From Oscillatoriales cyanobacterium M59_W2019_021 (GTDB taxonomy: Bacteria > Cyanobacteriota > Cyanobacteriia > Cyanobacteriales > Geitlerinemataceae), in the NCBI GenBank assembly GCA_015295945.1, contig DVED01000111.1, positions 1 to 62,410 on the forward strand: a stretch of DNA of 62,410 bases, written 5' to 3'. Shown piece after piece: positions 8,227 through 9,650 of the stretch. The notes beneath the pieces are model-generated. The model worked only from the letters and a program-made list of their open reading frames with translations, made no database searches and was not told the DNA's origin. How positions within the stretch are numbered: the stretch's first letter is position 1; every line of letters starts with the position of its first letter. Made by a program: the position numbers and the translations under genes.

Positions 8227-9295
8227 ATGAATAACACAATCGTCTCGCTTTTTTCAGGTTGTGGAGGCTTGGATTTAGGCTTTCAGAAGGCTGGATTTCG
8301 AGTCATTTGGGCGAATGAGTACGATAAAGAAATCTGGGAAACTTACGAAAAAAAATCATCCCGACACCTTTCTCGAACGCCGGGATATTCGGAGCATTGC
8401 TTCTCGCGAAATTCCAGACTGTATGGGGATTATCGGCGGACCTCCCTGTCAAAGTTGGAGTGAAGGTGGAGCTCAACGAGGAATTAACGATGCTCGCGGT
8501 CAACTGTTTCTAGAGTACGTTCGCATTCTCCGAGATAAACAACCTCAATTTTTCTTAGCAGAAAATGTTTCCGGTCTTTTACATCAAAAACATCAAGCAG
8601 CACTAAAAAATATTATTAAAGCTTTTGAGGAAGCGGGTTATATCGTATCGATAGAACTTCTAAATGCCGTTAACTACAATATACCGCAAGATCGCAAGCG
8701 CGTGATTTTAGTGGGCTATCATATCGATTTAAGTCGAAAGTTTAATTTTGAGATTTTACCTAAAAATTATAGCGTAAAAACGTTACGAGATGCCATTTGG
8801 AACTTGAGAGAGTCTGCACTTCCTGCCATTGATAAAAATAAAGCTAATGGCGATCGTTGCCTCGTCGATAATCATGAATATTTAACAGGGGGTTTTTCCA
8901 GTATTTATATGTCGAGAAACAGAGTACGATCGTGGAACGAACCCTCTTTTACGATTCAAGCTGGAGGTCGCCACGCTCCCATTCACCCTCAAGCTAGTAA
9001 AATGATTCAAGTTGGTACGGATAAATTTATTTTCGATCCGAATTCTTTAGGAGAATATCGACGACTTTCGATTCGAGAATGTGCGAGAATTCAAACTTTT
9101 TCCGACGAATTCATTTTTTATTACAAATATCTATCTGCCGCATATAAAATGATTGGTAATGCCGTTCCTGTTGAGCTTAGCTATAAGTTAGCTAAAAGTA
9201 TTTATCGAGATTTAATCGAACGTGGCACTCACTCTTGTAATTCTGAAGCAGAGAGAAGCCACAGGGATGCAGTGCAACTTAAACTCGCAATTTAG
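8227..9295 (+). pseudogene. Frameshifted M.HaeIII-like cytosine-5 DNA methyltransferase (GGCC)
   Basis: Two overlapping frames together encode a full C5-methyltransferase of about 350 residues. Frame one gives [19 protein letters not shown] (motif I, AdoMet binding) to ETYEK; frame two resumes at NHPDTF and carries [12 protein letters not shown] (motif IV, catalytic Cys), LAENV (VI), PQDRKRVI (VIII) and MIGNAVP (X). They join at a run of eight A at 8348-8355, where seven would restore the frame. Wording throughout, including MSRNRVRSWNEPSFTIQAGG in the recognition domain, closely follows M.HaeIII, so the target should be GGCC with the inner C methylated. Inactive as written unless slippage on the A-run or a sequencing error explains the shift. 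The DNA is richer in A+T than its neighbours. Confidence 0.85.
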
Positions 9296-9350
9296 AAAAG
9301 CTTAAAATCTTAAAATTTTCTCGGGGACAAAAATTTGAGAAGGTTGAGTA

Positions 9351-9650
9351 TCAAACTTCAAACTTGGATTGTTTTGAATTTTGATTTGAAGATCGATCGG
9401 AAAGACGATCGATTTCAATGCCGTAACTAGAAATCGAAAAATCATCTTCTAGCCAGCGAAAAATGCAGTTTGCTCCAGGTTGATAACGATTTTTCAGCGT
9501 ATCGGCTAAACTCATATATTTAGGACGATCGCGCAACTGGTCTTGTAAAGTGCGTGGAGAAAGCGTTACTTTATCCGATGGCAAATTACGAATGAGTTCT
9601 TCCACGATCGCGTATTCCCAGGCGCGACCTTGTTGGTTTGACTTTATCAT
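9351..9650 (-). pseudogene. N-terminal fragment of a HaeIII-like restriction endonuclease
   Basis: A 99-residue reading frame, convergent with the methyltransferase and ending 55 bases from it. It begins MIKSNQQGRAWEYAIVEEL, which has the look of the N-terminus of HaeIII-type nucleases (GRAxEYA). After about 85 residues it runs into SSNQNSKQSKFEV and stops, whereas HaeIII is over 300 residues long. The catalytic region would be missing. Position next to an M.HaeIII homologue supports the reading; the family match itself is from memory and moderate. Confidence 0.45.

Follow-up and report, generated by a model that had tools for sequence, protein, structure and literature searches.

Does the window analysed here, the whole 62,410-nucleotide contig DVED01000111.1 of Oscillatoriales cyanobacterium M59_W2019_021, carry a living GGCC restriction-modification (R-M) system, the remains of one, or a methyltransferase that has outlived its nuclease? 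We lean towards remains: a convergent HaeIII-type type II GGCC R-M pair that died recently, with a dead nuclease and a recently frameshifted methyltransferase that is perhaps a leaky orphan. To the decaying pair described in the initial annotation, the present analysis adds an internal deletion and a surviving tail in the nuclease gene, a purge of GGCC from the genome, and a mutual exclusion with GGm4CC-type enzymes. Complete convergent methyltransferase/nuclease pairs were found in genome G608 (locus L025) and in Pantanalinema (locus L060), and the features of the window are as follows.

8227..9295, + strand: M.HaeIII-type cytosine-5 DNA methyltransferase gene, split by a frameshift (open reading frames; domain, structure and homologue matches; conservation)
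8227..8463, + strand: frame A, 78 aa; residues 1 to about 43, with motif I, then out-of-frame residues until the stop (open reading frame, domain)
8315..9295, + strand: frame B, the rest of the methyltransferase; 326 aa from its own ATG at 8315, without motif I (open reading frame, domain, 1dct match)
8348..8355, + strand: A8 run, the point of frame loss (sequence, relatives)
9302..9385, − strand: nuclease C-terminus (tail), read in a different frame; its stop codon lies 6 bases from that of the methyltransferase (alignment)
9378..9388, − strand: junction of an out-of-frame internal deletion that removed about 172 residues by comparison with L060; approximate bounds (alignment)
9381..9650, − strand: N-terminus of a HaeIII-type nuclease, about 88 residues, the homologous part of the 99-aa frame at 9351-9650 (homology to G608 and L060)

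The methyltransferase belongs to the family of M.HaeIII, the modification enzyme of the HaeIII R-M system (1dct/3ubt). Aligned to it as the initial annotation had proposed, frame B matches M.HaeIII (1dct) with an E of 4.3e-100; frame A holds motif I (DNA_methylase match, E 2e-13), and the C5-methylase domain and the family similarity extend over the whole length of the gene, spread over two frames. The earlier description of the enzyme as almost word for word M.HaeIII is right about the homology but too strong about the likeness: M.HaeIII falls short of near-identity. The nearest relatives found are 70-73% identical. No supported sister was found for it in the tree (L040, with too few columns, was omitted), and viral contigs yielded one distant relative (26% identity), which was not used. 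Its homology to 1dct/3ubt and the nuclease remnant suggest GGCC specificity. M.HaeIII modifies the inner cytosine of that word.

The gene is not a single open frame: it is split into frames A and B at the eight-A run at 8348-8355, exactly where the initial annotation had placed the break. We compared 34 cyanobacterial relatives at this site (29 drawn from the 82 further genomes in which an M.HaeIII-like match was seen, plus 5 more). The frame is open across it in all 34, with A7 in 8, shorter runs in 26 and A8 in none. Read across the run, the window gene departs at 0 of 109 columns that are at least 95% conserved, while 13 other rows depart at 1-4 (leave-one-out test, 34 aligned rows; L040, with 1 column, was unusable there). 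The proposal that the gene is broken at the A-run only is thus borne out, and the slip is its sole visible lesion.

A gene this well kept would also be expected if the eighth A were a mistake of sequencing or assembly, with only the nuclease dead and the methyltransferase an intact GGCC-methylating orphan. Assemblies often contain single-base errors in homopolymers; this one is a draft in 212 contigs, and a C5 methyltransferase on another of its contigs (C160) also lies in two overlapping frames. Against an error, 15 of 18 other runs of at least 8 within open frames of a 350-kb sample sit in frames 200 aa or longer; the check covered 19 runs in open frames of 100 aa or more, among them the A8 site, which itself passes and so shows the limit of the test. 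A homology scan with 1534 query frames and good matches at 81 places flagged, besides the A8 site, a single further candidate frameshift of lesser strength; this check too is limited, having few queries and having overlooked the C160 frames. A general homopolymer problem was not seen in the assembly; a single error is possible, and we regard an error as the explanation with appreciable but minor probability.

An ATG at 8315 opens frame B, and C5 enzymes made of two subunits, M.AquI among them, are known, so that frames A and B might instead encode a split two-subunit methyltransferase. The break, however, falls between what we take to be motifs I and IV, outside the variable region, each fragment would bear out-of-frame residues, and 34 of 34 relatives have one open frame across the site; a split enzyme is highly improbable. 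A canonical −1 ribosomal frameshift does not fit, because going from frame A to frame B takes a shift of +1.

Some expression across the run is nevertheless conceivable by analogy. According to the available text on laboratory drift of M.HaeIII (Rockah-Shmuel 2013, PMC3812077), A7, A9 and A10 variants of that gene's own A8 run gave 23, 88 and 94% plasmid protection, respectively, at basal expression from a multicopy plasmid in E. coli. Both cases concern a one-base frameshift at a long A-run in an M.HaeIII-type gene; the window differs in being a natural chromosome with the run at another site of the gene, whereas the laboratory gene normally carries A8, and its tested variants were A7, A9 and A10. 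Slippage of E. coli RNA polymerase at A8 is weak, with deletions rarer than insertions, in the part of PMC6260861 available to us. Leaky expression of the window methyltransferase across A8 is therefore possible, since the M.HaeIII A-run frameshifts were bypassed in E. coli, though slippage at A8 is otherwise weak. Alternatively, the A-run might be a maintained switch, with orphan GGCC methylation held at a low level under selection by slippage in replication (phase variation) or in transcription. The 23-94% protection of the variants at basal expression (PMC3812077) fits this, as do a gene pristine apart from the run, the A7 kept at the site by 8 of 34 relatives, and the few GGCC sites left to methylate. 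Yet the A7 is a product of Glu-Lys-Asn codons; it is missing from 26 of the 34 relatives, and A8 from all 34. The weak slippage with its deficit of deletions (PMC6260861) also tells against a switch, which we consider improbable.

On the opposite strand, the 99-residue frame matches the N-terminus of a 318-aa frame of G608 with 47% identity over 86-88 residues (E 2.8e-22). The G608 frame is a RE_HaeIII member (PF09556; E 9.8e-26) convergent to an open M.HaeIII-like gene, and the earlier reading of the facing fragment as the start of a HaeIII-type nuclease is thereby confirmed. Searched alone against Pfam and NCBIfam, the 99-residue frame matched no family at E ≤ 10; its PADLOC match was weak (E 0.0025), and 5 of the 6 plasmid records that match it weakly (E 0.005-0.9) are annotated as HaeIII-family nucleases. 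The tail, which the initial annotation missed, is the last ~24 residues of the nuclease, with 71-74% identity to L060 over 23-24 residues and an E of ~2e-7 that comes from comparisons with a handful of sequences. Near 9381, the deletion junction takes the place of about 172 residues that include a conserved GDVTDIR...SxKHNH stretch, read as the presumed catalytic core because it is conserved. With these ~172 internal codons lost out of frame, the gene cannot make a whole enzyme, in agreement with the initial annotation, which held the nuclease to be gone. The remnant thus keeps RE_HaeIII similarity and is free of further stops, and it lacks a complete presumed core. Compared with the HaeIII R-M system, both genes of the window are damaged, in the convergent order seen in G608 and Pantanalinema, and the two activities of an active type II R-M system are not both encoded intact.

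Among the cyanobacterial M.HaeIII-like loci examined, whose flanks often extended 1.5 kb, a HaeIII-type nuclease was found in the flanks of G608, Pantanalinema and the window only. G138 (L027), which belongs to the genus of G608, has lost nearly all of the nuclease in a separate deletion, beside a solitary M.HaeIII-like gene. The nuclease has thus been deleted beside a retained methyltransferase in both G138 and the window, but the methyltransferase frame is open in G138 and broken in the window. The nuclease adjoining the M.HaeIII-like gene in L058 is NgoPII-like, and others are similar by eye. Opposite further M.HaeIII-like genes lie neighbours of ~260-276 aa without a Pfam match (L022 664-1440, L062 1890-2690, L035 2456-3283), L022 and L062 sharing one kind, which by eye also occurs in L029 and L059, and L035 and L036 sharing another; they are possibly undescribed GGCC nucleases.

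The genome itself was searched for related genes. It yielded no second M.HaeIII-like gene at E ≤ 1e-30, which answers the question of another GGCC methyltransferase raised by the initial annotation for that type; other C5 methyltransferases, an N6/N4 enzyme, a TdeIII-like nuclease (C40) and other putative nucleases are encoded, which weighs against the reading that we favour. The RE_HaeIII profile found no match in the genome; it also misses the window's own fragment and would therefore miss other fragments. The RE_NgoPII search likewise gave no match in the genome and none in any control genome, so this negative is weak. The sole complete D12 enzyme is Dam-like, and there is no DmtB-like match at E ≤ 1e-40; a resident GGm4CC enzyme that would make the methyltransferase redundant is accordingly unsupported. 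A second C5 methyltransferase (L100 7263-8521; G000:C160:47263-48521) lies in two overlapping frames, which would reflect either a frameshift or a two-subunit organisation like that of M.AquI.

The genome also bears a trace of past restriction. In 349,934 bases (~7% of the genome), there are 59 GGCC sites where 1360 would be expected (0.043; ~23-fold depletion), and the word is the lowest of all 256 tetranucleotides, whereas the observed/expected ratio is 0.45-0.86 in 10 of 13 other family members (11-360 kb sampled each; G063, with two of its three stretches reading N, was left out). A whole-genome pattern containing TGGCC gave 151 matches, nested ones included, versus 915 for the same pattern reversed as a control. 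The loss occurred by synonymous change. The Ala codon GCC is used in 18 of 2042 cases after G and in 3064 of 6234 after other bases, the Gly codon GGC stands at 0.8% before C and 19.4% before T, and Trp-Pro, where GGCC is unavoidable, accounts for 22 of the 53 remaining coding sites, compared with 21 of 1555 in G010. Deamination of 5mC as the remover is disfavoured, because the replacements are mainly GCG and GCA for Ala GCC after G, and GGA and GGT for Gly GGC before C.

Host genomes avoid restriction sites, more strongly for long-lived systems, according to the accessible part of PMC4687349. In our survey, the median GGCC observed/expected ratio was 0.159 in 23 M.HaeIII-like genomes and 0.42 in 22 DmtB-like genomes (P 0.01, ignoring kinship and based mostly on one 20-kb stretch per genome). 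GGCC avoidance is common in the order, including some DmtB-type genomes (G196, 0.033); G400, in which neither enzyme type was found, stands at 0.34, and G608, with its intact pair, is moderately depleted at 0.43. Several 6-base palindromes are also nearly absent from the own-genome sample (ACGCGT 0 of 39.6 expected, TTCGAA 1 of 126.6, GTCGAC 2 of 97.6). Since other palindromes are equally depleted and avoidance is common in the order, the purge need not be tied to the window pair; it points to past GGCC restriction without proving that pair to be the agent. A GGCC nuclease probably acted for a long time and stopped recently. As a rough dating, the 18 of 2042 Ala GCC codons after G correspond to ~0.014 changes per fourfold site, an estimate that assumes that avoidance has stopped, that the count started at zero and that there was no other GGCC nuclease.

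We propose the following course for the recently dead pair. While alive, it would have cut unmethylated GGCC and protected its own DNA. Restriction-site avoidance may be taken to stem from self-cutting, and leaky self-cutting by the live pair would have driven GGCC out of the genome through synonymous change. Deletion within the nuclease would then have orphaned the methyltransferase, with few sites left and its loss unpenalised, and a one-base slip at the hotspot A-run would have followed in the drifting gene, if the lesions came in this order. The methyltransferase would now be off or leaky, with at most some full-length enzyme made by transcriptional or ribosomal bypass of the run. Dead restriction systems are common.

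The same word is also methylated by an unrelated family. DmtB, M.Ssp6803II and M.CbeI are D12-class GGm4CC enzymes with the target word of the window's enzyme type, at the inner cytosine for DmtB and M.Ssp6803II per the papers, but of another family and chemistry, and no match to them was found in the own genome. In the available portions of the sources, the GGCC enzyme Alr1052 belongs to the D12 class (PMC4390886), HaeIII is blocked by GGm4CC (PMC6560206), and M.CbeI is a D12-annotated GGCC N4 enzyme that adjoins a HaeIII isoschizomer and is 57% identical to DmtB (PMC3425538). HaeIII-like nucleases in L012, L013, L049, L050, L052 and L053 adjoin D12-class, not C5, methyltransferases, as in CbeI/M.CbeI in the same partial text (PMC3425538).

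Among 388 genomes of the order, with the best few candidates per genome scored, 83 have an M.HaeIII-like match (E ≤ 1e-50; own genome included), 153 have a DmtB-type D12 match (E ≤ 1e-40) and, by subtraction, 153 have neither. Both occur together in 1 genome (G315) against 32.7 expected (one-sided Fisher P 6e-20, kinship ignored), and its M.HaeIII-like match carries six stops. On the typed part of the DmtB-type list, both kinds are present within at least 10 families and within four genera (g7, g17, g50, g221). The query is identified as DmtB by its D12 class, motifs and HaeIII-like nuclease neighbour, DmtB itself standing outside the comparison. A literature search, which was not exhaustive, found no report of this exclusion. 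Speculatively, and we think it unlikely, GGCC methylation in the order would be one interchangeable job, held by a restriction-derived C5 enzyme or by the N4 enzyme DmtB and almost never by both, because the same cytosine is modified. The own genome would then stand at a handover: the pair would have come in from outside, taken the place of DmtB and cleared GGCC from the genome, and would now be dying out itself at an A-run through which some enzyme is still made.

For the recently dead pair, three concordant clocks point to a recent death: the methyltransferase is untouched, the nuclease remnant carries no further stops, and GGCC is still nearly absent from the genome. The locus is a natural counterpart of the laboratory bypass of M.HaeIII A-run frameshifts. 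The exclusion of two unrelated GGCC enzymes raises the question of whether the mark itself, rather than its chemistry, is what cyanobacteria retain.
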